Source of the DNA: Kingdonia uniflora
Taxonomy: Eukaryota; Streptophyta; Magnoliopsida; Ranunculales; Circaeasteraceae
Direction of reading: 5' to 3'
NCBI GenBank assembly: GCA_014058105.1
Contig: JACGCM010000357.1
Span: 1 to 64,000 of the forward strand
Length of the DNA stretch: 64,000 nt
The notes below the pieces were generated by a model that searched no databases, had not been told where the DNA came from, and saw only the letters and a program-made list of their open reading frames with translations. Each line of letters begins with the position of its first letter. The stretch's first letter is position 1. A program made the position numbers and the translations under genes. Below are positions 1 through 46,023 of this stretch, one piece after another.

Positions 1-741
1 TTCATACCTTCAGAGTAATGTGGGATATCAAAGCAGTTTATCCCTATTTGAAGAATTCCGAATATTTAACCTCTAGAGAAGCGAATGCTAGTGCAGAAAT
101 CTAGCTTCTTTGTGTACTTCTATTAGGGATAGTGTGCAAAACCACACCAACACCATATTAGTTGGCCATCACCTATAATAGAAAGAACCAATGACGAACA
201 TAATGGTTGCCAAACTCCCCTTAAGAGGAGGCAAATTTAGTTTTTCATTTCCTTAAATGTTTTTTTTATTTTTGTGCACTCGTTCAATAATTGTTAGATT
301 ATCGATTCGATCTTATGGTGTTTGCACAAAGTGGTCCATACTCCCACAAAGAATCTTGTAGTTGGAGAGATTAATGGAAAGTGAAACAAACTCATGATGT
401 GGCACTCTAGACCATCTTGATCAACAAGTGCTCAAAAGGTCCTAAATAGTCTGCAGAGTAAACTCCCGAGTTGATCTAATAGCTGATTTACGGAGATACG
501 AAGAAACTACCTCAAAGTCTCGGTGTCAGCACTTTCAAACAACCCTGACAAGAGAACCAACACTGCATTCTTTACACTCTGACTCAACATATAATAAAAT
601 ATAAATAACTGGCATTTCAAGTCATCGTCCAAATAATAATAATAATATGGAATTATCGTCATCATCGTCGCTTTAAAACTCGTAAATAATTACAAGTCAT
701 TAAATATGCAAAGTACTAACCAGTAACCACTGTTGCTTCTT
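1..741. other. Gene-free stretch
   Basis: No convincing exon, RNA gene or transposon end was seen here. The only simple repeat is a short AAT run near 632-648. The sequence is AT-rich and looks intergenic. Confidence 0.5.
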
Positions 742-957
742 TTATGCTTGAGCTCCAATTCGCATTTCCACTAGTTGTTCTTCCACCTTCTTCGCAGTCT
801 CCACAGCGGAGTTTGTAATTGCTTGAGTTTGATCCCTAAGAGAACTTCTCTCATCCACGGCCACACTAGATATTGCTGACTGAGTTCCATCAGACACCAA
901 ACTTACGAAACTTGTGCTATTGCTGGTAGAGTTGGTCCCGGTGATTTTGCATTAAGA
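742..957 (-). other. Possible orphan 3' exon
   Basis: On the minus strand one frame stays open for about 70 codons and ends at TAA (742-744). It reads as a Ser/Thr-rich stretch followed by a heptad-like acidic and basic helix ending MRIGAQA. There is no good start codon, an in-frame TAA lies just upstream, and no clean splice acceptor was found. It may be the last exon of a truncated gene or chance. I do not recognise the protein. Confidence 0.22.
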
Positions 958-1699
958 ACGATGCTGGTGGTTTCTAAGCTCTGGGCCGTGTTTGTTTTTT
1001 GTTTTTTTTGGGTAAGAAGAGCATAGGTTTAGCCTAAGAAGTTCTGAGGTGAGAAAATTGAAAAAATTAAAAAAATGGTGTTTTAGTGAAAAATTCTATT
1101 TAAATGGTTCATTTTTAACTTCAACATCACACCAGAGTCTGTTTTTTGGCTGAACTGTATAATTTTACCACAAATTAAAAGTAAACTATATTTTTCTCTC
1201 TAATTCATCGTATATTAATGCAACAATACAATTAAAACGGTAGTAAACTACCATTTTTATCTTTAATACATACATAATATAAGGCAAAAACAAAATTAAA
1301 ATATGCAAATCACATACCAAAATACCAAATATATAGGGGACGTCACTCATCATACCCACATATAGAGATGGAGAAACAACCATTGTAGGAGAGAGAGAGG
1401 TATGAGGGTGGAAGAGAGAGGGGTGGGAGAGATAGAGATGAGTTAGAAATTATGCATTAGTTTTAGGTGCACTAGTTTTATTAAGAAAAAGAAAACCGCG
1501 CATAAAACTTAAACATGAAAGTAGCACGAGGGACAAAGGCAAGTTTTTATATATATTTTTTGCATTTTTGCAAGTTTAAGAGGCATAATTTGCTCCTGGA
1601 GGCAATAATGGGTAACGGTGCATATGGAGACACATGGCTTTGAATTTAATAGCAACGGCAATTCAAATGTTATAGTTGTTACTTTACACTAAAATTTTA
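958..1699. other. Gene-free, AT-rich with a GA-rich tract
   Basis: No gene is seen. A GAGA-rich tract lies near 1388-1440. Confidence 0.45.
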
Positions 1700-2606
1700 A
1701 TTTTATAATCAATACGAAGATTACACATAGGATTCATAAATTTACCAATAACTTATTTCTCTTCTACGAATTCGACATCACTAGAATCTCTATCATTCTC
1801 CTCGTTACCTTCGTCACTCTCCTCCCCCACAACTCTTTTCTTCTTCATGCGTTGTTGTCGTTTTGTCAAAGTGGATGCTTTGTCAAAGTGAACTACCCAT
1901 CTTCAAATTCACGTTCTTCTTCGAGTTAGGTTTTCTGTGAATCTTCAACGGACTCATAATCTTCAAATTCGCTGTTGCCGGAGTCGGTCACGTGTAGAGA
2001 CCAAAAACCAACATCCCCGAGAATCATAATCCAAAATTTGATACCATTTAATCCATAATCAAATTAAAGATCAACCTGTAATGAAAAATAAACGAATACA
2101 AACGATTTGGAGGGATAATTTCCCCAATAAGATCTTCAATTGCTCAATGAATTGGTTTCAATTGAGTTCATCTTTCAAACGTTAAGTTCTAGATTACAAA
2201 CTTAAATCTTTTTATTTTGCCTAGCCTTACCCTTTATAAATGCTACAAGTTTCATAGTTACAAAATATGATAGATATGCCCTTAAACGCACTAAAATAAG
2301 AAATAGTCGTGATAGTCTTTCGAATGAACCCATAAATCGTTCGAATTACTGGTTCAATTAAGCCTGAAAATTGAGGCAAACATAATTGGTCCTCTGGAAC
2401 CCAAAGTCGTTCGAACGACTCCAAATGTCGTTCGAACAACATGCCAATTTATGCCTTGAAATCGATACAGCTAGAATCCCTTCTTTTGGTCTTCGACTCG
2501 TTCGAACGACCTAGACAAATAAGCCTAAAATCAGCAACATAACGATTGGTTTAACTTTCCTTTGAACTCGTTCGAATGACTTGGCGTATTTTTAAGAGAC
2601 GTATCA
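1700..2606 (-). mobile_element. Decayed non-autonomous LTR element (same family as the 12.2-20.1 kb element)
   Basis: On the minus strand the LTR spans about 2049-2606, beginning TGATAC and ending GGATTA. These ends match the TGATCC/GGATTA ends of the element at 12212-20134. Next comes a degenerate primer site (about 2034-2045). About 20 bases further in, a conserved GTCGGTC..GTGT.GAGACCA..AACCA stretch (about 1984-2010) is shared with the intact family member. At about 1780-1868 a short frame encodes a Lys/Arg-rich then acidic peptide like the one at 19376-19597. The distal LTR was not found. The LTR holds several GTCGTTCGAACGAC palindromes. Confidence 0.55.
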
Positions 2607-2759
2607 AAAAAAATATTGGCACCACTGTTCATTTTATTTTCACCTTGCCTCCTACATGAATGTTTTGAAGTAGAAAATATTAGATTTTTCATCTATACCG
2701 GCACTACTCAATGTTTTAATTTCCGGTTCACGAGCGCACATGTTAATAGGTCGTATAGG

Positions 2760-3078
2760 TGTTATTGGTTGTGTCCAATTGTTACACCAAGTTAAGGTTG
2801 ATAGGGCTTAGTGTTACTCTTTATTAGGGATTGAGGGGGCCTAATGTTACTCTTTATTAGGGCTTGAGGGTATAATAGGAAGACCAGTCAGGTTAAATAG
2901 AGGGAAAGTCCCTCTTGGAGGCTATAACATAGAAAACCATCCCATTGAGGTGTGCAACCAATCCAAGAGAAGATTTTACTCAAGAATAGAGGATTTTCAT
3001 AAAGTATGAGAAAATGTTAGTATAATCTACTTTAAAGATTCAGTTATTGATCATAATTAATTGCATTAATTCCCAACA
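2760..3078 (+). repeat. LTR upstream of a primer binding site
   Basis: The segment begins TGTTATTGG and ends CCCAACA, followed after two bases by a sequence matching the 3' end of initiator tRNA-Met. An alternative start is the TGTTAA at 2741. No recognisable gag follows, so only the 5' end of the element survives. Confidence 0.5.
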
Positions 3079-3080
3079 AT

Positions 3081-3093
3081 TGGTGTCAGAGCT
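3081..3093 (+). other. LTR retrotransposon primer binding site
   Basis: TGGTGTCAGAGCT differs by one base (G for A) from the usual tRNA-iMet-complementary TGGTATCAGAGC. It lies two bases after the LTR end, the normal spacing. Confidence 0.6.
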
Positions 3094-3780
3094 AGGATAC
3101 AAATTATTGTGGTTAAATAATTGTTCTCGTACTTTAATGGCTTTGTTTTTTAGTACCTGAGTTGTTTATGTTCCCGAAGAAGAGAGAGAAGAGAAAACAA
3201 TAGCAAATAAGTTCTTATGTTTACTGAGTCTCTATCTCTCGGTATTACTGTTTTTATTGCAGTTGACCTCATGGAGGGAGATTGAAGAGATGAATGAAAA
3301 CCCTCCTGTTAGCAGCATCAAGCAATGGGATTTGGCTAGATTTGTTATCTTTAATAAGTTGACTTCATGCTCTAATTCGACTAGAGCATGTTCTGGACCT
3401 AATGAGAAGGCCAAAGAAGCTAAAACTCTAGAGAGACAAAGGGCTAAGGAGGCTATGGAGGAAGAGAGCTATTTTCTTTCCCACTTAGTTATTTGGGCTT
3501 TTTTGTTTATTTTTACCCAGTGAGTATTTAGGGTTTTTCTTCTCTCTCCCTCTCCAATTTCACCAAAGCGATTTCAGGTTTCAGATCTGATTTCCATTGT
3601 TTGGGCTATCTCGTGGGAGAGTTTCGAATCTATAATCTGATTTCTACTGTTTTGAGAAAACAGATTTGGGGGTTATTTATAAATCTGATTTGAGAAGAGA
3701 TTAGGAACTTGCAGTTGGGTTTTTCGAGTTCGGTTATGCTTGGAAGGTGATGCTTGTTCTAGGTTTTGTCAACGTCTCAA

Positions 3781-3900
3781 TTTTTATTTTTATTTTTTAT
3801 AGGGATCTGTAACCCTGAGTTTCCAGCCCCATGAGGTTTTCGAACCCGCAACCTCTCTGGGTGGAGAGGTACTACCACCACTGGACCAAGAGCCCAATGG
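3781..3900 (-). mobile_element. tRNA-derived SINE with target-site duplications
   Basis: Read on the minus strand it starts near GGGCTCTTGGTCCAGTGGT (box A-like TGGTCCAGTGG) and continues to GGTTCGAAAACC (box B-like). These are the two internal RNA polymerase III promoter boxes of tRNA-derived SINEs. The 3' tail is A/T-rich (AAAAATAAAAATAAAAA). A 15-bp direct repeat flanks it: TTGTCAACGTCTCAA at 3766-3780 and TTGTCAATGTCTCAA at 3901-3915, one mismatch. Confidence 0.7.
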
Positions 3901-3915
3901 TTGTCAATGTCTCAA

Positions 3916-4562
3916 TTACTCTTGTTCTTTTCCTATTGATTAATGTCTCAATTACTCTTGTTCTAGGTACTTCCACATCCAAAGCACCACGATTACCAGT
4001 GTATATAACTGTCAATGAAAGTATGATGGCCGAGGTCTCACGGGAAGTAAAGGTTCCTAGTACCACTGCAACAAAAGACAAGGTCTCATTAGAGCATCCC
4101 AACCCCTTGACAGAATAAAATTTCAGAGGCCTCCAAAATACATATGTTGATAGTAAAACGGTGATGGCAATTACACAACCCCCTTCCTTAAGGGTTCCAT
4201 TCAAGAAAATACTTGGAAGACAGAAGACAAATTTTTTCGAAATTGCAGCTAAATTACGCAAAATAAAATAATGATGGTAAACACAACCGTGTTTTGAATA
4301 CATTTCAGTTTGCAGAATATTCTTAGTAATTTACCATTTTTCCTCTGGATGATTACAAGTACAAAAATCTCTGCCTTGTAATTTTGTAAGGAGCATACGT
4401 ACTTGCAACAACATTAGTAGACTTTGTGCTATAAAATTACAAAAATTCCATAAGGAAATCCTCAAAAACTATACCAGTCCAATCTTAGCTTCAACCCAAT
4501 TATATGATACAAGGGTGCTTTCTAGCCATAGTTCAATCCATGTTAAGCTCCTAACTGGGTTT
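3916..4562. other. Gene-free stretch
   Basis: A 38-bp imperfect direct repeat (ATGTCTCAATTACTCTTGTTCT) occurs at about 3907 and 3945. Open frames on both strands between 3831 and 4303 overlap the SINE and show no family signature. No gene is supported. Confidence 0.4.
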
Positions 4563-4649
4563 TTATTCCTGGAGTTTTTCGAGCAAAGCCTTCATTTTCT
4601 CTTCGGGGAGTGCATTGAAGAGGAATACACATTTGTCACCAATATCATT
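4563..4649 (-). CDS. Orphan terminal exon of an unrecognised gene
   Basis: A minus-strand acceptor (TTTTATTTCCAG) is followed by 28 codons and TAA. The peptide runs NDIGDKCVFLFNALPEEKMK and ends ALLEKLQE, which reads like an ordinary conserved plant C-terminus. The exon starts in phase 0. No matching upstream exon was found between 4650 and 5362. A donor-like AG|GTATGT lies directly after the NLR stop codon at 5363, so this could be spliced into the 3' UTR of that gene. I cannot name the family. Confidence 0.35.
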   Translation of the reverse strand, partial: NDIGDKCVFLFNALPEEKMKALLEKLQE

Positions 4650-5362
4650 CTGGAAATAAAACGGGGAGGATCAGGAGACTAATCAAATCTATGGGAGTGC
4701 GCGATTCACATAATGAAGGCCAAAAGTTCAAATATGCTTACTAAATGAAGGCCAAAAGTTCAAATAGCAAAGGCCTGCAAGGTATATTGAAATGAAACTA
4801 TTTTGTCAGGCAAAATTGAGACATCAAATAATCTTTTTCCATGGCTGAAAATTTTCTACTCTATGTGGAAATCGTACATTATTGACCACTTTTTACTTAA
4901 TACCGCCATGGCATTGCTTGAAAGCAATGTAAATGGTATCACGTAGTGGAAATCCATGCAAACCAAGGATTATTGACTTTAATCCAAGTTCTGCAATTAG
5001 GTGTATTGCTTCAACCTAGGATATCTTTTGTGGGTGGTAATCCTGGAGCAACACCCTGATCTATACCAGAGCTAAGCAATAGAAGAACCATAGTCGCGTC
5101 ATTTATTATATACATTTATGGGTTGAAATGATGTTTTTTGGCGAGATAAGCTTCATTTGGAAGAAAAAGAGAATTTGGGGAAACATGAAAAAAGAAGAAA
5201 CTTTTCCAGAGTGTTTTTTGTATTTTATAAAAAAGAAAAAAGAAAAAACGAAGTAGAATTATCTTTGAACAAAAATTCAGTTTAACATGAAAATAAATCT
5301 CATTGGAATAGAGAGAATAAGGATAAAACTTTAATGTTAAGTTAAAATGTTAGAGCACATAC
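4650..5362. other. Intergenic or 3' intron of the NLR locus
   Basis: AT-rich with no coding frame. A splice donor-like GTATGT just 3' of the NLR stop (minus strand, about 5357-5362) and the acceptor at 4650-4651 could bound a 3' UTR intron. Confidence 0.3.
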
Positions 5363-8054
5363 CTAATCCTTTGACAGAAACTGTTGTAGTTGCGACTTGA
5401 CACTAAGATCATCCCATTCCAGCGTTTCAAACAATTTAGTTTTTATTAAAAACTTTTCCAGTTTGGGTATGCTCTGGGGACCAAAGGGGAGCCAATTCAA
5501 ATTCGGGCATTCAGATATCTCAAGATCCTCCAAGGAAGGGCAATCGAGGAGGACACGACGATGGGAGAAGAAGCTCGAGAGTCTTGGTAGTTTCCATAGT
5601 ATTAAGTCTCTTAAACGGGGCAACCTTATGGTCATGCTTCCATCTTCAAATTCAAATAACTCTTCCATGTAAAAGCAATCGAATACTATCAACTTTTCTA
5701 ATTGCTGGAGACCTTGTAATATTCGGATCGGAAAGATGCACTTCAAGCCAAGGCACCTTTTGATATATAGATTTTTTAGGTTGGAGAAGATTGGAGGCAA
5801 AGCAATAAAGTTGATTGAAGATTTTATGGATCTTAATTTGAGAATGCTAGCATGCCCATCCTCAAAACCGTCCGACTCAAATACCTTTTCTAATTTATGG
5901 CAATATTGTATATCGATTTCTTCGAGATTTTGCAGCCTTGTCCACCAAAGAGACGGCAGAACATTCACTAATTTGCCACAATAACTGATACTTACGACTT
6001 TCAATTTTTCAAAGGACCTTTCTACAAGGGGCCCATTCCAGATTGCCTTCAATTCGTTCATGTACCCAAGTTCCAAAATCTCCAAATTAGGGAACATGGT
6101 TTCGGGTACTTGTTCCTCCACATTCACAACATATTCCATTTGCCAACACTCAAGGATAACAAGAGTTTTCAAGTTGTAGAACCTGCCCTTTGGATTGAGC
6201 TGTAAAACATTCTTCAAACCCTCACACTGGTCTAGATATAATTCATAAGTTGTATCCATCAAAACATTGACCCAAGCCGCAACTGGGAAAGAATCTGAGC
6301 TTGTTCCAAGGGACACCAACCTTCTGAATTTGAACACGGTCCGATTAATAATTTGAAATTTCTCGACACGGATTTCAAAATTTTCTAGCTTCTCCCAATG
6401 ATGACACGGCCCGATATCTGTGGACAACCATTTGGTATTATCTATATCCAACTGTAGACTAGTCAAATTAGTCAAGGATGCCACCTCAGCTAAACTAGCA
6501 TTATCTCCCGTGCCTTCAATCTCCCACTTCCTAAAGCTCCTCCTCATGTTCAACTGTTCCAAGTTAAACAAGCTTGATATCACCTTAGGTGGGATACATT
6601 TAAGATTCCTGGTATACGACAAGTCCAACATCTTTAAATTTATCAATCCGTTTATTTCTTCTGGCAACCTCGAAATTCTAGTACTTTGTAAACCAAGTAT
6701 TTCGAGCGTCTTCAGATTCCCAATCACAGATATATCTTGTAATTTGGTGCAATTGTCCAAATACAGTGATCGAAGGCAATTCTTAAGAGATGAAAGCGAT
6801 TCTGGTAGCGAAGAAATACCAATATTGCTCAAATCTAAAGTTGCAAGACATTTCATACCTTCAAAGAACCCATCTGGAATATCAGCCAACGACCAGTTAC
6901 GTGCCAAAGATAGAGTCACCAGTTGCGAGCATTCTGGTGTATCAGCAGGGACCTTACGGATATTGTTACTCATCAACGACAATCGCAAACACTTCCCTGC
7001 TTCTTTTAGTTTTGGCCATTTTTGCAGTCCCAGACCAGCATTCATGATCGACTCGCTTTCATTCTCACGAGCTATTGAAATTGCAGTATCACGAACGATA
7101 TCGTGCATCATTACATATCCTTCATCGTTCTCTTTATTGACTCCTTCCAACAGCAGCCCAGAAGACACGAGTGATTTCAGCATAATACGCAGGTTTCCCC
7201 TTGCTTCGCTCAAAGTTTCTACATCTCCAAGTAAGTCCTCACCCATCGCGTACCCTACAAGTGCATCCATTGTCACCTTGTGGTCTTCGGGAAACAAAGC
7301 ACAAAGCAAGAAACATGATTTGGTTTTGCTTGTTCTTAAGTAGTCGTAGCTCAGCTTGATGGAAGCATTGACGAGATCCATACCCTCAAACATGGACTTC
7401 TTTAGTTGTGGAATAACATCAGTCCAAAAGCCTTTGTCCTTATTTCTTAAAGTTCTTGCCAGCGTAACAATCGCTAAAGGCAACCCTCCACATTCATTAA
7501 CGATTTTCTCGGACATCTCACGCAGGGCATCGGAGTCTACATCACCAACTTCCTGTCGAAATAGCTGGAGGGAATCGTCCTTTGATAGTACCTTGACGTC
7601 AATGTTCTTTGTGGTCTTCATGGAATTACATACATCTAATTTCCGTGAGGTGATTACCACTTTGCAACTGCCTTCGTCAAGGTCTATTCCCACATCACTT
7701 AATTCCAATCTCGTCCATAGATCGTCAAACATTAGAAGGATACTTTTTTCTTGCTTCAATCTGTTCGATAGTCTTGCGGCCCTTACTGGTATACTTTGTT
7801 CTTCGATTTTCATGCCCAAGCTCTCTGCGATCTGTGTTTGGATCCCTCTCAAGTCGGGGTTTTGAGAAACCGTTGCAAACACAACCTTATCGAAAAGCTT
7901 TGTTTCTTCGACTTGTTTGCATATTTCCTTCATCAAGGTCGTTTTGCCAACCCCTCCCATTCCGTGAACCCCAACCAATTTGGTATTACTATCTTTCAGT
8001 GCTTTGATGACTTTTTTCTTGGTGACTTCTCTTGATGCGAAAGCATCAAAATGC
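5363..8054 (-). CDS. CC-NB-ARC-LRR receptor body (3' half of the kinase-NLR fusion)
   Basis: This is the NB-ARC and LRR part of an intracellular immune receptor of the At4g27190/At4g27220 (RPS2/RPS5-like) class. Counting from an ATG at 8200, the P-loop GMGGVGKTT is at about residues 80-88, kinase-2 LLMFDDLW at 155-162, RNBS-B CKVVITSR at 179-186, GLPLA at 239-243 and MHD in MMHDIVRD near 365-367. Irregular LRRs run from about 400 to the end (FLSKD). All switch motifs look intact. The first 49 codons of the open frame (8055-8200) are an out-of-frame reading of the coiled coil encoded by 8046-10580. The real sequence starts at HFDAFAS. Against the upstream copy, a 20-nt deletion near 8052-8060 separates the two frames. 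It could be a translated second ORF, an assembly error or a broken gene. Confidence 0.85.
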
Positions 8055-10580
8055 AGGTGCAGGATTTGATACAATACTGAAGCTTCTCCCCTCAACAAGG
8101 AGCTCGTCAACGACAACAACCTTCTTTTCCGATTCTTCGCAGAGGCGATGACAAGCAGAATGCCGCCCTTTGAAACAGCTATTGATCTTCTCAGCTTCAT
8201 GATGCAATTCGTTCATTTCATTTCGAACTTTGGCCACATTGTCTAGCCATTGTTCAACTACTTTGTGAATCACATCTCCATTTTTTCGAGCTAAATCAAC
8301 TTTGGCCTTAAGATCAGTTTCCAGCCTTACGAGATCATTTTGGACTTTTCTTTGGAGGTCGTCGAATAGAGACATCCCTTCAAAGAGGGACTTTCTAATC
8401 TGTTTAATAATATCAGGCCACACAGCTTCATCGCTGTGTTGCAGAGCTCTTGCAAATGCAAGAATTGCAAAGGGCAACCCTTCACATTCACTGGCGATGT
8501 CCGCAGAAATTTTACGTAGAGCTTTGCAGTCTACACCGCCGACATTCCGAAGAAATAGTTCCAGTGAATCTCGCTCCGATAACCTCTGGACTTCAATATT
8601 TTTTGTAGTCTTCATGGAACGACATACATCAAGGTTCCTTGACGTTATTAAAACTTTGCAAGTATTTTGACCGTCTCTGCAAGGTATAATTCCCACTTCA
8701 GCTAGTTCCAACGTCGTCTGTACATCATCCAAGATTAAAAGGATACTTTTCTCCTGCTTCAATCTCTTTGATAGTCTTTGAGCCCTTATTTTCATGGCAT
8801 CTTCTTCAATTGTCAAGCCCATGCTCTTTGCGATCTGTGTTTGGATCCCTCTCAAGTCGGGATTTTGAGACACTGTCAACAAGACAACCTTATGAAAAAG
8901 CTTTGCTTCAACTTCCCGGTAGATTTCTTTCATCATAGTCGTCTTGCCCACCCCTCCCATTCCGTAAACCCCGATTAAGTGGGTATTTCTATCCATCAGT
9001 GCTTGAATGACTTCCTTCTTGGTGGGCTCTCTCGATGCAAAAGCATCAAAATGTTCCACTAACTGTGGTGGTACAGGTGCAGGATTTGATACACTGCTGA
9101 AGCTTCTCCCCTCCGTAAGGAGCTCGTCAACGATGACAATCTTCTTCTTTGAATCTTTGCCGAGGCGATAACGAGCAGAAAGCCACCCTTTGAAACAGCT
9201 TTTGATCTCTCCAGCTTGACAATGCAATTCCCCCACTTCGTCTCGAACTTCGTCCACTTTCTCCAGCCAGTGTTCAACAACTTTATGGATCACATCTCCA
9301 GCATCTCGAGCCAAATCGACTTTTCCCTTAACATCATTTTCCAGTCTTAGTAAATTGTCTTTCACTTTGCTTTGAAGGTCGTTGACATATTTCTTGTAAC
9401 AAAAACGATAGCTGATATGACGATAAACCAGAACTGCAGCAGACTTGGCAATGTCAAACACAGCTTGTGAATTCCCACTGAGCTTTCTCGCCTCAAGCAT
9501 GCCAACCACCTTTTGCATATCACCCGGCCTTTTATTAGGGTCCTCATCAAGGCAACATAAAACCACATGTACTAAAGTACTTGCTTCCTTTTCATTGATT
9601 GCTTCCTTATCCTCGATAAGTCTCTTATCAATCAGATCCCTCAGTTTCTTTCCTTTTAAGCTCTTTTGCATAAAGGCATGAAAGATTTGCTGTTGTGAAA
9701 AGTCATATTTGGTATAAAAATCATCTCGTCCGCCAAAGAATAAATCCAGAAGTACCTTACCAAAACTATGGATATCACATGTCTCAGAGATCTCATGTCC
9801 CAAGCCACTCTCAGGCGGCGTATACTCATCTTTACCCATCAACTTAGGAAAGCCGAAATCGGATAATACTGCTCGAAAATTGTCATCAATAAGTATATTC
9901 TTCAGCTTAATTTTAAGATGTAATATCCGAGGGCGGCAATCATGATGAAGGTAAACAAGCGCCTTAGCAACATCTAATGCAACCGTGTACCTCTTTTTCC
10001 AGTCTAAATATCGACCACCTTGAATCTTGGGGATTATCCAAGAATCCAACGACCCGAATGGGTAAAAATCATAGACAATTAAGAAAATATTCTTACCCGT
10101 TTCTGTCATATGACTACAATATCCGCGAAGGTGTACAAGATGATCATGTTTTACCATTGCAACTGTTGAGATGTCCCTTTGGAATTCCCACTCTCCATAT
10201 TCCGACGGTTCAACTCTTTTTACCGCTACCGATGTCCCATCATTCAATTTTCCCTTGAAGACTGAAGACGACTCACCACTGCCAAGCTTATATCGAAAGT
10301 TATTGGTTGCCGCTATCAGGTCTTCGTAAAGAAATCCCGTAGGAAATCTATCAACGAGCTGCTTTCTTATTTCTGGTATAAATTGTTGCTCAATTGGTCC
10401 CAGGTCATCCCCAAGGAAGTGGAGAAACACCAACGTGATGATAGAGAGAATCCCTAATATATCAGCTGCATGGATGAAGAAGAAGCTTATTGAGAGTCCA
10501 TTGGAAATCGCAAATATTATAAGCTGGATGTTGGCAATTAACACTACAAGCGTAATGATCTTCCATGCTTTTCGATCCAT
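8046..10580 (-). CDS. Membrane pseudokinase fused to CC-NB-ARC and a second CC (5' half of the fusion)
   Basis: The 844-residue frame has two hydrophobic segments (about 8-27 and 29-56), then a kinase-like domain (about 85-365) of the At5g20050-like type, then NLR sequence. The Gly-rich loop LGSGESSSVFKG (99-110) and VAVK Lys121 are present. The catalytic loop reads HLKIKLKN (221-228), with Lys replacing the catalytic Asp. DFG is kept (241-243), the activation segment is short and APE is degenerate (PPES). It is therefore probably catalytically dead. From about 380 the protein becomes an NLR coiled coil (CC 390-500), then NB-ARC with GMGGVGKTT (540-548), LLILDDV (614-620) and GLPFA (701-705). 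The domain stops near 735, without ARC2 or MHD, and a second CC follows (738-835). The frame ends after SNPAPAF, where a 20-nt deletion shifts into the downstream NB-ARC-LRR frame. The ATG at 10580 matches the ancestral start of the kinase at 20.9-22.2 kb. Confidence 0.85.
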   Translation of the reverse strand: MDRKAWKIITLVVLIANIQLIIFAISNGLSISFFFIHAADILGILSIITLVFLHFLGDDLGPIEQQFIPEIRKQLVDRFPTGFLYEDLIAATNNFRYKLGSGESSSVFKGKLNDGTSVAVKRVEPSEYGEWEFQRDISTVAMVKHDHLVHLRGYCSHMTETGKNIFLIVYDFYPFGSLDSWIIPKIQGGRYLDWKKRYTVALDVAKALVYLHHDCRPRILHLKIKLKNILIDDNFRAVLSDFGFPKLMGKDEYTPPESGLGHEISETCDIHSFGKVLLDLFFGGRDDFYTKYDFSQQQIFHAFMQKSLKGKKLRDLIDKRLIEDKEAINEKEASTLVHVVLCCLDEDPNKRPGDMQKVVGMLEARKLSGNSQAVFDIAKSAAVLVYRHISYRFCYKKYVNDLQSKVKDNLLRLENDVKGKVDLARDAGDVIHKVVEHWLEKVDEVRDEVGELHCQAGEIKSCFKGWLSARYRLGKDSKKKIVIVDELLTEGRSFSSVSNPAPVPPQLVEHFDAFASREPTKKEVIQALMDRNTHLIGVYGMGGVGKTTMMKEIYREVEAKLFHKVVLLTVSQNPDLRGIQTQIAKSMGLTIEEDAMKIRAQRLSKRLKQEKSILLILDDVQTTLELAEVGIIPCRDGQNTCKVLITSRNLDVCRSMKTTKNIEVQRLSERDSLELFLRNVGGVDCKALRKISADIASECEGLPFAILAFARALQHSDEAVWPDIIKQIRKSLFEGMSLFDDLQRKVQNDLVRLETDLKAKVDLARKNGDVIHKVVEQWLDNVAKVRNEMNELHHEAEKINSCFKGRHSACHRLCEESEKKVVVVDELLVEGRSFSIVSNPAPAF

Positions 10581-12065: not shown

Positions 12066-12206
12066 GCTGAATGGTAGATAGAGCAGAGATCATCCTGAAT
12101 AATTTGGTTCATCTTAAGGATAGTGCTACCCAAGGAGTGGCTGTTGTAATGATGCTGGAGAGTGTTGAATTTGATCTAACAGTAAAGATACCATTAGTTT
12201 TAGGTT
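12066..12206 (-). mobile_element. LINE segment between two later insertions
   Basis: This short piece lies between the solo LTR and the LTR element with ACCAT duplications. Removing both insertions makes it contiguous with the LINE parts on either side. No clean domain can be read in it. Confidence 0.4.
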
Positions 12207-12404
12207 ACCATAATCCACAATATGAATAAAGAAACCCTAAATAGAAGAAATAGTACGAAGAACACACAATTGGTGGGAAAATTCTCTTTTAGAGCTTCAA
12301 TTGCTTAATCAAAATCAATTACAATCGAATTCCCTTCAAACCCTAAGTCTCACTCTTAGAATTTGCATTGATCTAACCTCCCCCCTAGTATTCTTGCCTA
12401 GCCT

Positions 12405-13398
12405 TGAAACATTCATATTTAAAGTTTATTTTATTCCGTGTCTAGTTTAGATGTCAGCATTAACTCGTGATTACTCGTCGTCAGAGATTGCACCTTGAGC
12501 GACTACAACTGGACTGACACTGAACAGGTAAGTGGGATTCTAACTCCTTGTTATAAATATCAAGCCCTTTGTACTTTTACAGAGTATGAAAAAAAGTAAT
12601 AAGTATGTCTATTTAAGATAAACAAAACTTCTATTCGAATAGAAATGTTCCCATTTCTATTCGAATAGATTTTATTGTATTCGAATAAAATGCCCTAGGC
12701 TGATTTTTATTCGAATACATTCATTTGTTATTCGAATAGATTGGCTCAGCTTATTTTTTATTAGAATAAATTTCTTTTTATTCAAACAGAGAACGTGATT
12801 TTAGTTTTCCTATAAAAGATAATTTTCCTTTTCTCAGAACTCACCTCTTCCAAAACCTATTTTTTTGGAGCTTGATATTTAGAGAGAGAAGAGATTTCTT
12901 TGAGAGATTCAAGAGAGAATTAACAACTCGAATTTAAATCAATCATTGATCAAGAAACCTAAATCATAATTTGTAAAGATTGAACGATTAAAGCTTTAAA
13001 GTTTTGGTGCGTTATCCGAGGTGAGACGTTGCGAGAACGAAGAGGCGTTGCGAGAACGTGGAATTGATTACGAGAAGTTCAATTATAAGAGAGGTAACTA
13101 TGGAATGTGTTTATCGAGTCTGTAAGTAATTGAATACTTGTAATTTGATTTCTATAGTGGATTATTTAGTTGTCGGGTGATTCGACAGCGACTTGTGGGT
13201 TTTTCTCCTGAGAAAGGTTTCCCACAGGGTTAAAATTGCTTGGTCTTGCGGTTAATTTTATATTGCTTGCTTGACACTAGATAATTGAACCAATTTATTT
13301 TAGGTTAAGCGTAGACCATTAATTCAAAGGAATTCAGACCTATCGATTTAGACCTAATTTATTCAAAATCAACTAGTCTCAAGCGTCTAGAAATTTCA
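12405..13398 (+). repeat. 5' LTR of the Copia-type element
   Basis: 994 bp, TG...CA ends. At 12640-12790 it holds a cluster of CTATTCGAATAG-like palindromes, also present in the 3' LTR. Confidence 0.8.
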
Positions 13399-13400
13399 AT

Positions 13401-16332: not shown

Positions 16333-17577
16333 CCGTTTGTTATGAGACTTTTCAGTGAAAAAAGAAAAGAAAAAAAATGGAAGTAATTTTTGGGGGAAAG
16401 ATGAATACTGAGAATAGAGTTTGTATCCTCAATGTGGATTTAGTGGTGGAGATGGATATAAAGGGAGGTGGACTCAAAATGAAGGAGAAGTATGAGTAAT
16501 TGTTACTCACTAAAGAAAATAGTGAAAGAAGGCGAGCTCAAAATGAAGAAGGAGGGGATGAAGTGTTCTATTTCATGTGTATTTCATAAGATGGGGAGTT
16601 AGTGTAACTGTTAGTATCAGAATGCCAGCAAAACACCTAATCCGTCATGTCCCTTCCCTTGCCTTCATTATAACATTTTCAAGACCTGTTTGATCTTGAG
16701 TTTAATATAGTCAGTTTAGTGGAGATGAGAGATAGAGATTCTATGTTAGTTAACTTGACACCATCTATGACAATTAATTTTTTGTCTGTGAGATCTTTTA
16801 ATTTACAGTGCGCCATTTATTTGATGAAATTAAATTTTTTCTATTCACATACTCATATTCATATTTCACACAGAGTGTTTGCTAGTCAATTCTCAGTGAG
16901 TTTTGAGTATCCACCCTAGTGAGGCCTAAGTTGAAACAACTTTTCAATATAGTATTCTAACTGTGGCTGGATAATATGTTGAAAACTGGGTATCTCTTTG
17001 ACTATGCACACACACATACCAAGTAATTCATTTAGTGATTGTTTTATAACACATTGACAATGTCTTGGTCTTTATAGGATATTTTAGATTCATTATCTTT
17101 CTATCATGCCTTGTATTAGTGGGAGTGTTGTATTCTTTTGCTTACTTATTTCAGAGACACTCCCCATGTGTATTTTCCTTTTATTTCATTTTACGGGGGT
17201 TACCATTATTTTGAGGGGGAGATACATATTATTTTGTGGTATTGGTGTTTTAGTATTTTTCCTAACTACATTTTATTTTACTGGTTTGTTTCTTCTTTTA
17301 TCTGTTATTTTCCCTTTGTTCATCTGTACCAAAAAAGGGGAGAGATGATCCTGACAGGTAAGCCAAGTAAGTTATGTCTTTTTTTTTTTTCTGGATCTTT
17401 TATTTTATTTGAACGGTTAAATGATGTATCTTGTTTAGTGTGCAGGGATTCTAGAATATATGCTATAAGATGAAAGTGGAGCTTTGAGTATGGATGTTCA
17501 GTGATTGAGTCAGTCGATCGAGTTGTATTTTTTTTTGCAGGTCTTATTTTGACATGAAATGAACCAAAGGGGGAGAT

Positions 17578-18592
17578 TGAAACATCTATATTTAGAGTTT
17601 GTTTCATTCTGCGTCTAGTTTAGATGTCAACATTATCTCGCGGTTACTCGTTGTCAGAGATTGCACCTGGAGCGACTATAACTGGACTAACACTGAACAG
17701 GTAAATGGGTTTTTAACTCCTTGTTTTAAATATCAAGCCCTATGTAATTTTACAAAGTATGAAAAAAAGTAATAAGTATATCTTTTTAAGATAAACAGAA
17801 CTTCTATTCGAATAGATTCTTTTTATATTCGAATAGAACTGAGAACATTTATATTCGAATAGATTTTATTGTATTCGAATAAAATGCCCTAGGCTAATTT
17901 TTATTCGAATACATTCATTTGTTATTCGAATAGATTGGCTCAGTCTATTTTTTATTCGAATAGATTTCTTTTTATTCGAACAGAGAACGTGATTTCAGTT
18001 TTCCTATAAAAGATAATTTTTCTTTTCTCAGAACTCACCTCTTCCAAAACCAATTTTTTTAGAGTTTGATATTTAGTGAGAGAAGAGATTTCTTTGAGAG
18101 ATTCAAGAGAGAATTAATAACTCAAACTTAAATTAATCATTGATTAAGAAACCTAAATCATAATTTGTAAAGATTGAGCGATTCAAGATTTAAAGCTTTG
18201 GTGCGTTATCCGATGCGAGGCGTTGCGAGAACGAAGAAGCGTTGTGAGAACGTGAAATTGATTGTGAGGAGTTCAATTAGAAGAGAGGTAACCATGGGAT
18301 GTGCTTATCGAGTCTATAAGTAATTGAATACTTGTAATTTGATTTCTATAGTAGATTGTTTAGCTGTCGGGTGATTCGACAGCGACCTGTGGGTTTTTCT
18401 CTAGAGAAAGGTTTCCTACAGGGTTAAAATTACTTGGTCTTGTGGTTGATTTCATATTGCTTACTTGACACTAGATAATTGAACCAATTTGCTTTAGGTT
18501 AAGCGTAGACCATTAATTTAAAGGAATTCAGACCTATCAATTTAGACCTAATTTATTCAAAATTGACTAGCCTCAAGCGTCTAGGAATTTCA
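17578..18592 (+). repeat. 3' LTR of the Copia-type element
   Basis: 1015 bp. It follows the purine tract AAAGGGGGAGAT and carries the same TTCGAA palindrome cluster (17815-17985) as the 5' LTR. Confidence 0.8.
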
Positions 18593-18872
18593 AGTCTTGC
18601 GCCTTTTTATAAGAGTTACAAGTTCCTAGTTCCAATAGGACTTGCCTAACTTTGCCCCTTTTATAAGGGTTACAAGTTCTTAGTTACAATATGACTTACC
18701 TAGCCTTGCCCCTTTTATAAGGGTTACAAGTTCCTAGTTACAATAAGACTCCTACTGCTAAATTAGAGTAATACTCTAAATAGAAGTATGACACTAAATT
18801 AGTGATACTTCATAGATCCTCTTGGATCATGGCTCCCCTTTTAGGAACCTTGAGCTCCTGCTCAAGCTAGAA

Positions 18873-19316
18873 TTAAAGATGTGGGAACTTGGAATTCCCC
18901 GTATCATGAGTGTACCACTTCGATTTGTTGAGAAGCTTGCCCTTTCTACCGCTCCTGGTCGCAGTCACCCCCTTCTCTAGAATATCGTACTCCTTTAAAA
19001 GAGTTTCACGCTCAATCCATAGATTTTTAACCGATGGTAGTCGTGCGTCTTCTGTGAAGTCTTTATCTAGTAGAGATACGAATATATAATCGCTTCTAGA
19101 TCTGATAGTAGTCAATACTCCCTTAAAATCCATCGAAGTACTCTTCCAATGGTCATTAGGAACTGTTAATTGAAGATCTAGTCCCAACTTCTGATTGGAA
19201 GACTTCAGCTGGTACTCGCAATTCTTCCTCCATAGTAGCTTCTTGTGAATCACCCTAATCTTTAGACTTGTATCATACTCATGAGGTACAATCGGCTGAA
19301 TATGTATAACCTCCAA
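18873..19316 (-). CDS. Unrecognised ORF of the non-autonomous LTR element
   Basis: 147 codons, uninterrupted, in the internal region near the 3' LTR. The peptide is mixed basic and acidic (a WIERETLLKEYDILEK helix, then a basic RSGRKGKLLNK stretch) with no zinc knuckle and no protease or RT motif. It could be a captured host fragment or a divergent element-specific protein. I do not recognise it. Confidence 0.35.
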   Translation of the reverse strand: MEVIHIQPIVPHEYDTSLKIRVIHKKLLWRKNCEYQLKSSNQKLGLDLQLTVPNDHWKSTSMDFKGVLTTIRSRSDYIFVSLLDKDFTEDARLPSVKNLWIERETLLKEYDILEKGVTATRSGRKGKLLNKSKWYTHDTGNSKFPHL

Positions 19317-19375
19317 TAATGCGGAACTTACTAGTATTGGCCATCTACCAAAATAATTGTCATTTTTTTTGGCAT

Positions 19376-19597
19376 CTACAAATCCATGTAAAATGGTGAT
19401 GCAAATCTTAAAATCAATTTTATGATTTTTTTTCTAGGATTCGTTAACTTACCAACATCCGTGATTTTATCGAATTTGGCATTTTTGGAATCTCTAGATT
19501 CATCGTCTTCCCCCTCATTCTTTTTGCTCCATTTCTTCTCTTCACGATCATGTCGTCTCTTGGAAGTAAAAGCTTTTGAGATCTTGGCGGTAAACAT
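19376..19597 (-). CDS. Basic/acidic ORF near the primer site of the non-autonomous element
   Basis: 73 codons starting MFTAKISKAFTSKRRHD. A Lys/Arg-rich stretch is followed by an acidic one (EGEDDESRD). A similar arrangement occurs at 1780-1868 in the decayed family member, which suggests it belongs to the family. Function unknown. Confidence 0.35.
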   Translation of the reverse strand: MFTAKISKAFTSKRRHDREEKKWSKKNEGEDDESRDSKNAKFDKITDVGKLTNPRKKIIKLILRFASPFYMDL

Positions 19598-19696
19598 GAT
19601 GTTCTTATTCTTCTAATTAGATCTTTTCTTAGATTGCTTAAGTCGGTCGCATGTCGAGACCATAAACCATAATCTCCCAATGATGAATGGAACATC

Positions 19697-19708
19697 GCTC
19701 TGATACCA
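19697..19708 (-). other. Primer binding site of the non-autonomous LTR element
   Basis: Minus strand TGGTATCAGAGC, next to the 5' LTR at 19712-20134. Confidence 0.75.
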
Positions 19709-20139
19709 CTTAATTCACAATACGAATAAAGAAACCCTAAATAGAAGAAATAGTACGAAGAACACAAAATTGGTGGAAGAATACCCTTTTAGAGCTTCAA
19801 TTGCTTAATCGAAATCAATTACAATCGAATTCATCTCAAATCCTAAGTCTCTATCTTAGAATTTGCATTGATCTAACCTCCCCCTACTAATCTTGCCTAG
19901 CCTTGCCCCTTTTTATAAGGGTTACAAGTTCCTATTCCAATAGGACTTGCCTAGCCTTGTGTTTTTTATAAGGGTTACAAGTTCATAGTTACAATAAGAT
20001 TTGCCTAGCCTTGCCCCTTTTATAAAATTTATAAGTTCCTAGTTATAATAAGACTCCTACTGTTAAATTAGAGTAATACTCTAAATTGAAGTATGATACT
20101 AAATTAGTGATACTTCATAGATCCTCCTGGATCAACCAT

Positions 20140-20868: not shown

Positions 20869-22140
20869 TCAAGCAGTAACTGATGACATCGGTAACGATA
20901 AGTCTGCCGGAGGTTGATTACAACATTCCTTTAGGTGCTCAAGCATGTTGACTACCCGCTGCATGTCACCCGGCCTATCATTGGGGTTCTCTTTAAGGCA
21001 CCATAGAGCTGCATTAAATAAAGTAGTCGCTTCCCTCATATCAAATTCAACCTGGGTAAGTCTTTTGTCAATCAAGTCCCGAATTTCCTTCATTTTCAAT
21101 TTATGTTGCATAAATTTGTAAGAATCTGACCATTCCGGTTGTGAATTACGACAGCTGTTGTCATAACGATTGCCATTAATGTCGAAAGAAACATAACTCT
21201 GACCGAAAAACAGATCTAGAAGTACCTTACCGTAGCTAAAATAATCACATTTCTCTGAGATCCCATTGCGCGAGAACCATTCAGGGGCCATATACCCAGG
21301 TGACCCTCTTGTAATTTCTGGATAAAATCGGATATATTCTTCATTCATCAATTGAGAAAGCCCAAAATCGGACAAAATTCCTCGAAGATCTTCAACAATT
21401 ACATCATCTATCCGAATAGCCTGATGTATTAACTTTCGTTTGATATCATGACAAATGGGCTCAAGTAGAATATTCTCCGGCTTAAGATCAAGATGTAATA
21501 TCGGTTGACAGCATTGACGATGAAGGTATATAAGGGCCTTACCAACATCAACGGCAACTTCGTACCTTGATTTCCATGATAAAAATGGACTAGTGGGACT
21601 GTCATTTTTGGGGAAAATCCATTTTTCCAAGGAGCCTATCGGATAAAAATCGTAGACAATGAAAAAAGATTGCATCCCTCCTTTCTCCATATGAGTACTA
21701 TATCCGCGAAGGCGTACAAGGTTAATATGGTCTACACCGGCAATTGCTGTTATTTCCGCTGTAAATTCCCCCTCACCATATTCAGGCCGGACAACTCTTT
21801 TTACCGCCACCGATGTCCCATCATCCAGTTTGCCCTTGTAGACTGCACCCGACCCACCACTACCAAGCTTATATCGAAAGTTATTGGTCGCCTTTTCGAG
21901 GTCTTTGTACTGGAATTCGATAGGGAGTCTAGAAATTCTCTTGTACTCTATTTGAGTTTTAACATGTTGCTTAGTTGCTCCCACATCATCTTCTTGGAAG
22001 ACACATATGATGATGAAGATAATCACTGAGAATACAAATACATGAATGAAGATGAACAATATGCTTTTTGAGAATCCAACATAGAAAAAACCAGCGCCAT
22101 GACGTGAGCGAATGATACTACGAGCGTAATGAGCTTCCAT
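20869..22140 (-). CDS. Receptor-like protein kinase, At5g20050-like
   Basis: 423 residues: one N-terminal membrane segment (about 27-47), then a Ser/Thr kinase domain (about 85-410). Visible motifs are the Gly-rich loop LGSGGSGAVYKG (92-103), VAVK Lys114, catalytic HLDLKPEN (216-223, Asp218), DFG (258-260) and MAPEW (284-288). All catalytic residues are present, so activity is likely. Between PENILL and DFG there are about 20 extra residues compared with the pseudokinase paralogue. The nearest homologue in the window is the kinase part of the fusion at 8046-10580. An ATG at 22154 opens MDQKAWKLITLVV, closely matching the fusion's MDRKAWKIITLVV, but in another frame. A 4-nt difference in the membrane segment means the present product must start at 22140 or at a later Met, unless this is a sequencing error. 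Confidence 0.85.
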   Translation of the reverse strand: MEAHYARSIIRSRHGAGFFYVGFSKSILFIFIHVFVFSVIIFIIICVFQEDDVGATKQHVKTQIEYKRISRLPIEFQYKDLEKATNNFRYKLGSGGSGAVYKGKLDDGTSVAVKRVVRPEYGEGEFTAEITAIAGVDHINLVRLRGYSTHMEKGGMQSFFIVYDFYPIGSLEKWIFPKNDSPTSPFLSWKSRYEVAVDVGKALIYLHRQCCQPILHLDLKPENILLEPICHDIKRKLIHQAIRIDDVIVEDLRGILSDFGLSQLMNEEYIRFYPEITRGSPGYMAPEWFSRNGISEKCDYFSYGKVLLDLFFGQSYVSFDINGNRYDNSCRNSQPEWSDSYKFMQHKLKMKEIRDLIDKRLTQVEFDMREATTLFNAALWCLKENPNDRPGDMQRVVNMLEHLKECCNQPPADLSLPMSSVTA

Positions 22141-22154
22141 GCTTTTTGATCCAT

Positions 22155-23105
22155 TAAATCTAAAGCACTTTTGGCAAGAAATTAAAAAGAGATGGCTTTT
22201 GAAATTGTGTTATCTTTGTATAAGAAGATAACCAAATTGCTTATTTAAGTCTTCACCATAGAAGGTTGTCGGCTGAAAGTTTGACTTCCAAATTTTTTGC
22301 AATATTCTTTATTCGGCTTATTTACATTTAAGAGATGCTAAAACATTTTGTATTTACCCTTTAAAATTTTTCACCGTGTAGATACCTTGTTAATATTTTA
22401 TTTGGCCAAAAACATACAAAATTTTAGACCCTCAAGATAAACTCTGGTTAAGACCTAATACAGTACTACTACTAGTTATACTTTTCTCCATGATGTTGTA
22501 AGATCATAAGATTCTCTTTCAACTGTGAACAGAATGTACATTAGTTTAGGAGGGAAATGTCTACACTCCTATTTAGAAATATAAGGAATCTTCATGCTGA
22601 TAGCTGACACCCTCTTTTTTAATAGGAAATTATTACAAAATTGCATTAACCTTCTAGAGAACATAAACTATTCCAACATGAATTTTACATAAACTATTCC
22701 AACTTACAATAAAGGAAATATTTAGCTTACTTTAGGAGATCCAGAGAACGCGGATCCACTACTATTACAATATGAGGCTTGGCGAGCCTACAGTGCCAAG
22801 CAATGGTGAACGACGATTCAACAGCCGGAGACCACGTAATTTCCAAACGATCCAGAGAAGGCATACATAATTAAGCCATTTTTCATGAGGAGAATAAAAT
22901 AAATCACTTGTCACTACAATCTCACAAAGTGAATACAATGACAATTTCCCCCAATTAGCCATTCAGATCCCCTAAAAGGCACTTTTCCTACTATGGGAAA
23001 AGGGTAGCACCTTGTCACAATAGATGCTTCATGGCTCCAAAACAGGCCTTCTAGTGGCGTTGGATACGTAATTTAGAATTCTAATTTAAATATTATTCTT
23101 GCAGG
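22155..23105. promoter_or_regulatory. Kinase upstream region with a duplicated block
   Basis: The part from about 22400 to 22620 resembles 31685-31930 (shared GACCCTCAAGAT.AACTCT, GTGAACAGAATGTACATTAGT and AGGAATCTT blocks). In both places it is oriented as the 5' flank of a minus-strand gene. No individual promoter element is claimed. From 22736 on, LINE-derived sequence begins. Confidence 0.35.
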
Positions 23106-26057: not shown

Positions 26058-28140
26058 CTAATTGTTCACTCTAAAATCGTCCCATTCCAGGCTTTCAAAC
26101 CATCGATCATCATCTATTAAAAACTTTTCCAGTTTGGGTATGCTCTTGGGACCAAAAGGGAGCCTCTTCAAATTCGGACATTTTTGTATCTCAATTCTCT
26201 CCAGGAAAGGGCATTCAAAGAGGACATGAGGTAATCTCTTCGAGTGGGAGAAGAAGCTTGTGAGTCTGGATAGGTCCCACAGTTCCACAATCCTTAAACA
26301 GGGTAACAGTATTGTCTTGCTGTCATCTTCTTTTAATTGCATGAGACCTTGAAAGATTCGGATCGGAAAGATGCACTTCAAGCCATGGCAGTATCTGATC
26401 TCAAGCCTTTTACGGTTGGAGAAGATTGGAGATGAATTGATTTCCATCCCTTCCGCTTCCTCTGCTATTGATGAGTGAGTTGCATTCTCATATAGTAAGC
26501 TCTTCCAATTGTTGGAATCTTTGCTCAAATCTAAGGTTACAAGACGTTTCATACCTTCAAAGAAGCCATCTGGGATCTTTCTCAACGATTTGCTACTTGC
26601 CAATGATAAAGTCATAAGTTGCGAGCATTCTGGTACATCAGCAGGGACCTTGTGGATATCGTTACTCATCAACGACAATCGCAAACACTTCCCTGCTTCT
26701 TTTAGTTTTGGCCATTTTTGCAGTCCCAGCCCAGCATACATGATCGACTCGCTTTCATTCTCACGAGCTATCGAAATTGCAGCATCACGAACGATATCAT
26801 GCATTATTACATATCCTTCATCGTCCCCTTTCAACAGCAGCCCAGAAGATACGAGTGTATCCACCATTATATGCAGGTTTCCCCTTGCTTCGCTCAAAGT
26901 TTCTACCTCTCCAAGCAAACCCTCCCCCATCGTGTATCCTACTAGTACATCCATTGTCACCTTGTGATCTTCAGGAAACAAGGCACAAAGCAAGAAACAT
27001 AGCTTGGTTTCGCTTGATTTCAGGAAGTTGTAGCTCATTTTTATTGAAGCGTTTACGATATCCATTTCTTCGCACATGGACTTCCTTAGTTGTGGAATAA
27101 CAGCATCCCAAAAGTGTTTGTCCTCCTTTCTTAAAGTTCTTGCAAGTGTAACAATCGCTAAAGGCAAACCATCACATTCATTAACAATTTTATCGAACAT
27201 CTCACGCAGGGCATCGGAGTCTACATCACCAACTTCCCGTCGAAATAGCTCGAGGGAATCGTTCTTTGATAGTACCTTGACGTCAATGTTCTTTGTGGTC
27301 GTCATGGAATTACATACATCTAATCTCCTTGAGGTGATTATCACTTTGCAACTGACCTCGTCAAGGTCTGTTCCCACATCAGTTAATTCTAATCTCGTCC
27401 AACATTAGAAGGATACTTTTTTCTTGCTTTAATTTCGCCGACAGTTTTGCAGCCCTTGCTGGTATGCTTTGTTCTTTGATTTTTATGTCCAAGCTCTCTG
27501 CGATCTGTGTTTGGATCCCTCTCAAGTCGAGGTTTTGAGAAACCATTGCAAACACAACCTTATCGAAAAGCTTTGTTTCTTCGACTTGTTTGCGTATTTC
27601 CTTTATCAAGGTCGTTTTGCCAACCCCTCCCATTCCGTAAATCCCGATCAAGTTGATATTACTATCTTTCAGTGCTTTGATGACTTTTTTTTTGGTGGCT
27701 TCTCTTGATGCAAAAGCATCAAAATGTTCTGCTATTCTTGGTGAGACAGGTGCAGGATTTCATACACTACTGAAGATTTGTCCCTGTGCAAGGAGCTCGT
27801 CAAGCCTCTTTTCCAATTCTTTGCCAAGGTGCTGACAAGCATAACACCATCCCTCGAAACTGCTATTCATCGATGTAGCTTGATGATCCAAATTCTCCAC
27901 TTCGCCCTGAACTTCGACAACCTGCTCCAGCCAGTATTGGAGAACTTGGAGGATCACATCTCCATTTTTTCGAGCTAAATTGACTTTCATTTTAACATCT
28001 TTTTTCAGCCTTAGCAGATTTTGCACTTTGTTTTGAAAGCCGTTCACATGTCTCTTGCAACGAACATACTAGTTGTTATAAAGAACAGTCGGATTGGCAA
28101 GTTCTTTCATAAGAGTAGCTACAATAGCAGCACCTTCCAT
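26058..28140 (-). pseudogene. Broken CC-NB-ARC-LRR immune receptor
   Basis: A paralogue of the NLR at 5.4-8.1 kb. The ancestral ATG is at 28140 (MEGAAIVATLMKELANPTVL). A TAG stops it at 28069-28071, before most of the coiled coil. The CC continues to QIFSSV, where TGA (27760-27762) replaces a Ser codon. The NB-ARC has GMGGVGKTT (about 27610-27635), but an 11-nt deletion near 27400 removes part of LWxRLEL after kinase-2 and shifts frame. The 26058-27377 frame then carries the RNBS-B, GLPLA and MHD (IMHDIVRD) motifs and a shortened LRR. The LRR jumps from the second repeat to near the C-terminus, losing over 300 residues relative to the paralogue. With two stops, a frameshift and a large LRR loss it cannot make a normal receptor. 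Confidence 0.85.
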
Positions 28141-45821: not shown

Positions 45822-46023
45822 GTAAGTAACCTTTAGTTACCACTAATGATGTAATTTTGTGTCATTGCTGCCCTTATTAAAGGTATCAAGGTTTCTTCGC
45901 TTAGTTTTTTCGCATGTTGTAAATTGCTGTATTTGGTTTTTAAAGTCGTATTGCTAGGTATATTTTCAAGTTCCTTTTTTCTTTCAATTATTCCCCGTTT
46001 GCTAATCTGTGCTACTTATGCAG

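Follow-up and report, generated by a model that had tools for sequence, protein, structure and literature searches.

Can one plant gene carry a membrane-anchored kinase and two nucleotide-binding, leucine-rich repeat (NLR) modules, and would such a gene represent a receptor family or a single event? The question is raised by a locus at positions 5363 to 10580, minus strand, of a 64,000-nt stretch of the Kingdonia uniflora genome, hereafter the window (GenBank assembly GCA_014058105.1, contig JACGCM010000357.1, here C2033, positions 1-64000). A preliminary description had read the locus as membrane segments, a kinase-like domain, coiled coil (CC), NB-ARC, a second CC, a second NB-ARC and a leucine-rich repeat (LRR) region, in that order and interrupted by one small deletion. 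We confirmed that this membrane-kinase/tandem-NLR arrangement is real. The locus looks like a one-off fusion rather than a conserved new receptor family, and is probably a recent chimera that is unable to encode its LRR half and would yield, at most, a membrane-pseudokinase-CC-NB-ARC-CC protein. Searches of the same genome covered approximately 1.0 Gb in 2693 contigs.

The locus is divided between two open reading frames (ORFs), with the following features:

8046 to 10580, minus strand: ORF1, 844 codons from an ATG at 10580 to a frameshift stop at 8046; hydrophobic N-terminus, pseudokinase, CC1, NB-ARC1 and CC2
8212 to 5363, minus strand: ORF2; NB-ARC2 and an RPS2-type LRR
10401 to 10571, minus strand: hydrophobic region, ORF1 aa 4-60; one continuous stretch by hydropathy
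9519 to 10289, minus strand: kinase-like domain, Pfam Pkinase, ORF1 aa 98-354
9080 to 9463, minus strand: CC1 of the tandem NLR; only the start codon and the initial ~10 residues are missing
8370 to 9029, minus strand: NB-ARC1, aa 518-737; P-loop to GLPx present, no MHD
8052 to 8369, minus strand: CC2, in the same frame as NB-ARC1
5363 to 8040, minus strand: NB-ARC2 (7343-8029) and RPS2-type LRR, in the ORF2 frame

A domain search of the two frames recovered Pkinase, NB-ARC twice and LRR_RPS2. The Pfam matches in ORF1 were Pkinase (aa 98-354, E 9.2e-25) and NB-ARC (aa 518-737, E 4.1e-38), and those in ORF2 were NB-ARC (E 1.8e-44) and LRR_RPS2 (E 1.7e-37). Together with hydropathy and comparison with relatives, these matches bear out the domain order first proposed. 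Chance can be excluded as the source of the arrangement, because two strong Pfam domains lie in one frame and the tandem part recurs in other loci. The single 844-codon frame combines a non-canonical domain, Pkinase, with NB-ARC, as in an NLR with an integrated domain (NLR-ID). The CC labels follow position and similarity to relatives, rather than a coiled-coil predictor. That ORF1 aa 4-60 forms two membrane helices is judged by inspection and from a model of low confidence (helices 3-26 and 38-55). The structure model of the kinase was built from two sequences and had a mean predicted local distance difference test score of 40, and no fold search was based on it. The short form of NB-ARC1 is common to the window copy and four intact tandem relatives; the RNBS-D pattern gave zero matches, relatives included, and is therefore uninformative for this domain. 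The tandem unit is itself a direct repeat (7379-8365 versus 8373-9385, 74% over 1016 bp).

The point at which kinase and receptor meet is sharply defined:

9463 to 9492, minus strand: fusion junction, in frame; similarity to the standalone kinase of the window extends as far as 9492 and NLR similarity starts at 9463

Contig C2682 of the same assembly is collinear with window positions 4-9463, non-coding sequence included (86-98% at the nucleotide level over the main pieces), and the similarity ends at the junction, 9463. C2682 holds an intact gene, L010, encoding a 1434-aa tandem NLR from its own ATG, and no kinase domain was present in the 29.9 kb of this contig that was read (4701-34600). 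The C2682 copy is an allele or paralogue of the window locus. NLR similarity begins at 9463 against both L010 and a second tandem NLR gene, L016, and the proteins of both start ~10 residues ahead of that point. Upstream of 9463 the window showed no match to the 5′ flank of L010; only fragments of ~50-70 bp occur elsewhere, at 28113 and 30636. Among the loci compared and the matches listed, the kinase is an addition seen only at the window copy. No second copy with the kinase-tandem-NLR junction turned up, no search aimed at the junction itself having been completed. Separate intact genes in related genomes had been named in advance as the finding that would speak against a fused gene; part of this was found inside the same genome, where C2682 carries an intact tandem NLR free of the kinase.

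Two further similarities concern the same regions. A 70-bp piece of the window (30636-30705) is 79-81% similar to the 5′ end of the L010 and L016 genes, and is perhaps a stranded remnant of an NLR start. C2682 also holds a second duplicate of window positions 8-3036; a 2-kb stretch of this contig, checked for continuation of the duplicate into a further NLR, showed no similarity to the window.

The tandem part of the locus belongs to a wider group. An NB-ARC search of the genome scored 123 of 593 candidates, and 20 NLR loci chosen from these 123, mostly matching profile positions 2-247, were read over ~10 kb each. CC-NB-ARC-CC-NB-ARC-LRR was found in a single open frame at four of the 20 chosen loci (L010, 1434 aa; L011, 1554 aa; L013, 1444 aa; L016, 1547 aa) and in broken frames at two (L014 and L025). 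The tandem layout is a genuine subfamily; since intact members exist, a fortuitous accumulation of pseudogenes was rejected as the origin of the tandem part. The window CC1-NB1-CC2 segment matches L010 at 82% of amino acids over 443 residues and has the domain order of the subfamily, but the 20-nt loss and the replaced N-terminus have deprived it of a single open frame through the LRR and of its own start codon. No kinase-domain match was found in any of the 20 chosen NLR loci, or in L001-L032 as a whole, at the cut-offs used. Kinase-query matches with E values of 1.8e-6 to 5.2e-5 (L010, L015, L020, L021 and L025) were discarded as CC1, since they cover query residues 373-400 only and the 400-aa query contained 27 aa of CC1. 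A whole new family was rejected as a reading of the locus, given that the tandem relatives examined are without a kinase.

The first NB-ARC of L010, L011, L013 and L016 ends before the MHD region, and its P-loop and kinase-2 motifs vary (for example, GMEGVGKSY in L013 and LDAVW in L010). The first NB unit of these tandem CC-NB-ARC-LRR proteins (CNLs) may no longer work as a switch.

The full reading frame of the window copy is interrupted at a single site:

8050 to 8056, minus strand: frameshift site, net 20-nt loss (~8053) relative to L010, between CC2 and NB-ARC2

As a result of this loss, ORF1 stops and the receptor half lies out of frame. The single small deletion and the ~1,740 codons of the preliminary description agree with these data, as the two frames joined amount to 1739 codons. 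The frameshift precedes NB-ARC2-LRR, so ORF1 does not unite NB-ARC and LRR in one product as an NLR-ID would; the second unit has all the pieces of an RPS2-type CNL (CC, NB-ARC with MHD and RPS2-type LRR), but its CC2 and NB-ARC2 lie in different frames. Rescue of the full frame by an intron was unsupported: a rough splice scan, using a dicot consensus and an arbitrary cut (five donors and one acceptor kept), found no intron joining ORF1 to ORF2. The window copy is most likely dead as a complete receptor. As to the placing of an NLR at a membrane, as first suggested, the window copy does not encode the full ~1740-codon product, short of a change of frame in the RNA; the shorter ORF1 product may still be tethered.

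The kinase part also departs from its relatives, in its catalytic motifs:

9897 to 9920, minus strand: catalytic loop, HLKIKLKN in place of the HLDxKPEN of two relatives (the 20872-22209 kinase and L033); catalytic Asp lost
20872 to 22209, minus strand: standalone kinase of the same family; HLDLKPEN, full activation segment, membrane-region start in another frame

The fused kinase retains the ATP-site Lys and DFG. As well as the catalytic Asp, it lacks part of the activation segment expected of an active kinase (~9835), which in alignments is shorter by 13 residues than that of the 20872-22209 kinase and by 11 than that of L033. Judged by motif, the fused kinase is a pseudokinase, as first proposed. 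It is 45-48% identical to the standalone kinase at 20872-22209. A kinase search of the same genome, with 104 of 1572 candidates scored, gave at least 108 matches, and the best-scoring relatives listed are 60-63% identical to the fused kinase. The family shares with it a hydrophobic N-terminus followed by a kinase (45-63% identity); in the 20872-22209 kinase and in L033, unlike in the fused kinase, HLDxKPEN is present and the activation segment is fuller, and neither was seen joined to an NLR. The 20872-22209 membrane kinase family may resemble the Arabidopsis At5g20050-like kinases.

Kinase relatives in the same genome include loci with two or three successive kinase matches sharing one open-frame length, of 939-1081 aa:

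C500, 2383943-2386915 and 2297249-2300185: multi-match kinase frames
C670, 2173738-2176605: multi-match kinase frame
C436, 334098-336140 and 343449-345491: multi-match kinase frames
C1883, 39883-41916: multi-match kinase frame
C686, 282692-284776: multi-match kinase frame

These frames look like an expansion of tandem-kinase proteins, which may perhaps be of more interest than the fusion. Tandem-kinase proteins are a class that includes some wheat and barley rust-resistance kinases.

How might the two parts have come together? When the kinase and NB-ARC match lists were read side by side, the window locus was the only one, among the matches listed, with a kinase less than ~2.5 kb upstream of an NB-ARC. 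The next closest among these matches were on C499 and C2436. C499 has one kinase 7.8 kb upstream and another 4.4 kb downstream of an NB-ARC, on the same strand. On C2436, kinases within 61654-68989 are followed by a same-clade NLR at 77526, ~8.5 kb off and on the same strand; this order is what a deletion would need to yield such a fusion, and is likely a precursor order. Both contigs carry kinases of the fused-kinase family amid NLRs on one strand, at a spacing of ~4-13 kb.

The explanation we favour starts from features read directly in the assembly, namely the anatomy, the junction, the frameshift, the kinase-free collinear copy and the intact tandem relatives. A rearrangement would have taken place where membrane kinases and RPS2-type CNLs lie together, and fused, in frame and at ~9463-9492, the 3′ end of a membrane-kinase gene with a pre-existing tandem CC-NB-ARC-CC-NB-ARC-LRR gene near its codon 10. 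The junction would have cost the NLR its start codon and 5′ region, so that the NLR part would have to be transcribed from the kinase side. The full reading frame would have been broken where 20 nt are missing between CC2 and NB-ARC2, leaving a locus that can encode only the 844-aa membrane-pseudokinase-CC-NB-ARC-CC protein. The order of these events is one that we infer. The likeliest role of the 844-aa product, if made, would be that of a membrane-held bait or partner of intact tandem NLRs; its expression, membrane location and function are predictions.

Several observations weigh against a recent, broken chimera. ORF1 is still open across 844 codons, and NB-ARC2-LRR carries no further stop. 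The ratio of non-synonymous to synonymous substitution rates (dN/dS) in CC1-NB1-CC2 between window and L010 is 0.42 (dN 0.102, dS 0.240), which does not exceed the 0.43-0.52 obtained when the four intact copies are compared with one another. With L016 as outgroup, this segment has 30 synonymous and 48 non-synonymous changes on the window branch and 26 and 52 on that of L010 (Fisher p 0.62). For NB-ARC2-LRR, the window-L010 ratio is 0.99 (dN 0.065, dS 0.065), a value that rests on 34.5 synonymous changes. The kinase branch (35/62 synonymous/non-synonymous in the window, 57/59 in L033) is looser, but not significantly so (p 0.07). With ORF1 open and these ratios, no decay is demonstrated outside the frameshift. 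The frameshift is probably recent, given the lack of further stops, which does not of itself prove function.

The substitution samples are small throughout. The remaining 18 pair values of dN/dS range from 0.43 to 0.60. NB-ARC2-LRR polarised by L016 gave 20/50 synonymous/non-synonymous changes for the window and 11/51 for L010 (Fisher p 0.16). With L011 as outgroup the window and L010 counts were 37/69 and 20/31 for CC1-NB1-CC2, and 20/60 and 14/39 for NB-ARC2-LRR. Branch lengths thus vary with the outgroup, as after gene conversion, which is likely in such clusters. Pairwise kinase ratios were 0.24 for window-L033, 0.54 for window-20872 kinase and 0.32 for L033-20872 kinase, with dS near 1 in the L033 pairs; comparing just the fused and standalone 20872 kinases gave 0.45 for 287 codons, and 0.54 for 358 codons when the membrane region was included.

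A first alternative is that the ORF1 product works as a short, membrane-anchored NLR-like protein, in which the pseudokinase baits kinase-targeting effectors and CC-NB-ARC-CC docks on intact, signalling tandem NLRs. The intact ORF1 and the resemblance of the constraint on CC1-NB1-CC2 to that among intact copies are consistent with this. In addition, kinases rank among the most common integrated domains across the NLRs of 105 species (PMC12787737), and PMC5067614 also finds them frequent. However, equal constraint would be expected from a recent frameshift, and the want of a second copy of the junction, subject to the limit on searching given above, also tells against this alternative, which we regard as unlikely. 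Slightly less likely still is an extended version, in which the ORF1 product is a working membrane pseudokinase bait, its docking arm places partner tandem NLRs at the membrane, the decoy is split from the signalling receptor, and full-length forms occur in other individuals. We are similarly doubtful that a full-length kinase-to-LRR fusion is functional as an allele in other individuals or species and that the window holds a broken allele, as the kinase is missing from the collinear contig of the same assembly. The least probable explanation is a misassembly that linked a kinase locus to an NLR locus: C2682 diverges at 9463 and C2033 begins only ~9.5 kb from the junction, yet we reason that such a join would be in frame by chance only once in three times and would rarely fall within ~30 nt of one gene's similarity end and ~10 codons of another's start.

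Is the layout of this chimera new? The preliminary description had known of no described family with it, a claim that finds no support, as N-terminal kinase-NLRs and tandem NLRs have both been described. Wheat Tsn1 and the moss Pkn-NLRs (PpKNL) carry a kinase at the NLR N-terminus, and the cell-death response of the Tsn1 kinase domain depends on its HRD motif (PMC11218826, PMC3991678). The window locus shares the position of the kinase, N-terminal to NB-ARC. It differs in that its kinase has a hydrophobic N-terminus, is without the catalytic Asp, keeps no catalytic HRD-type motif (HLKIKLKN for HLDxKPEN) and precedes a CC and a tandem NLR with a broken receptor frame. In barley Rpg5 the kinase lies at the C-terminus, the opposite end, and the NLR is single. 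Rpg5 shares with the window locus the joining of an NLR with a kinase (PMC9528084, PMC5067614). Tandem NLRs already described comprise TNTNL, including RPP2a, CNNL and CNLNL proteins, and RPP2a is cited as evidence that such proteins work (PMC3782705). These have more than one NB-ARC module per protein, as here; the window units differ in being both of CC type, with an NB-ARC1 that ends before the MHD region and, in the window copy only among the copies seen, an N-terminal kinase. In algae, NLR-like proteins bearing membrane signatures have been reported (PMC7145615). Among the papers listed by our searches, judged mostly from titles and abstracts, we recognised no plant example of an NLR whose N-terminal kinase is membrane-anchored; as evidence of absence this is weak. 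The membrane segment and the tandem NLR on an N-terminal kinase-NLR appear to be new, whereas the N-terminal kinase and the tandem NLR are each already known.

The remainder of the window contains a further receptor gene:

26061 to 28140, minus strand: single CNL, standalone and of the same clade; has its own ATG, frame interrupted by stops and a frameshift

Searches by tblastn gave no NLR or kinase match in the rest of C2033 (64001-99298). Direct repeats at 12206-13399 and 17577-20134 (89-91% identity), which are LTR (long terminal repeat)-retrotransposon-like, lie between the fusion gene and the standalone kinase, and an ~814-bp repeat at 11248-12060 matches two places further along C2033 at 87% (L007 and L008). 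On the plus strand, 45944-48571 reads as a single stop-to-stop open frame of 875 aa, in which two ABC_tran stretches follow a hydrophobic-looking ~250 aa without a Pfam match; a 90-bp tandem repeat lies within the frame at 46661-46840. From its domain order, the frame is presumably ABC-F-like.

NLR integrated domains are thought to arise by gene fusion, a step that is seldom caught in the act. Because one assembly contains relatives of the kinase and of the NLR, a collinear copy free of the kinase and a sharply bounded in-frame junction, the birth of this fusion is datable and testable. If the membrane-anchored product is made, it would provide a membrane tether on an NLR module; if it is not, the locus would be a clear example of a failed fusion.
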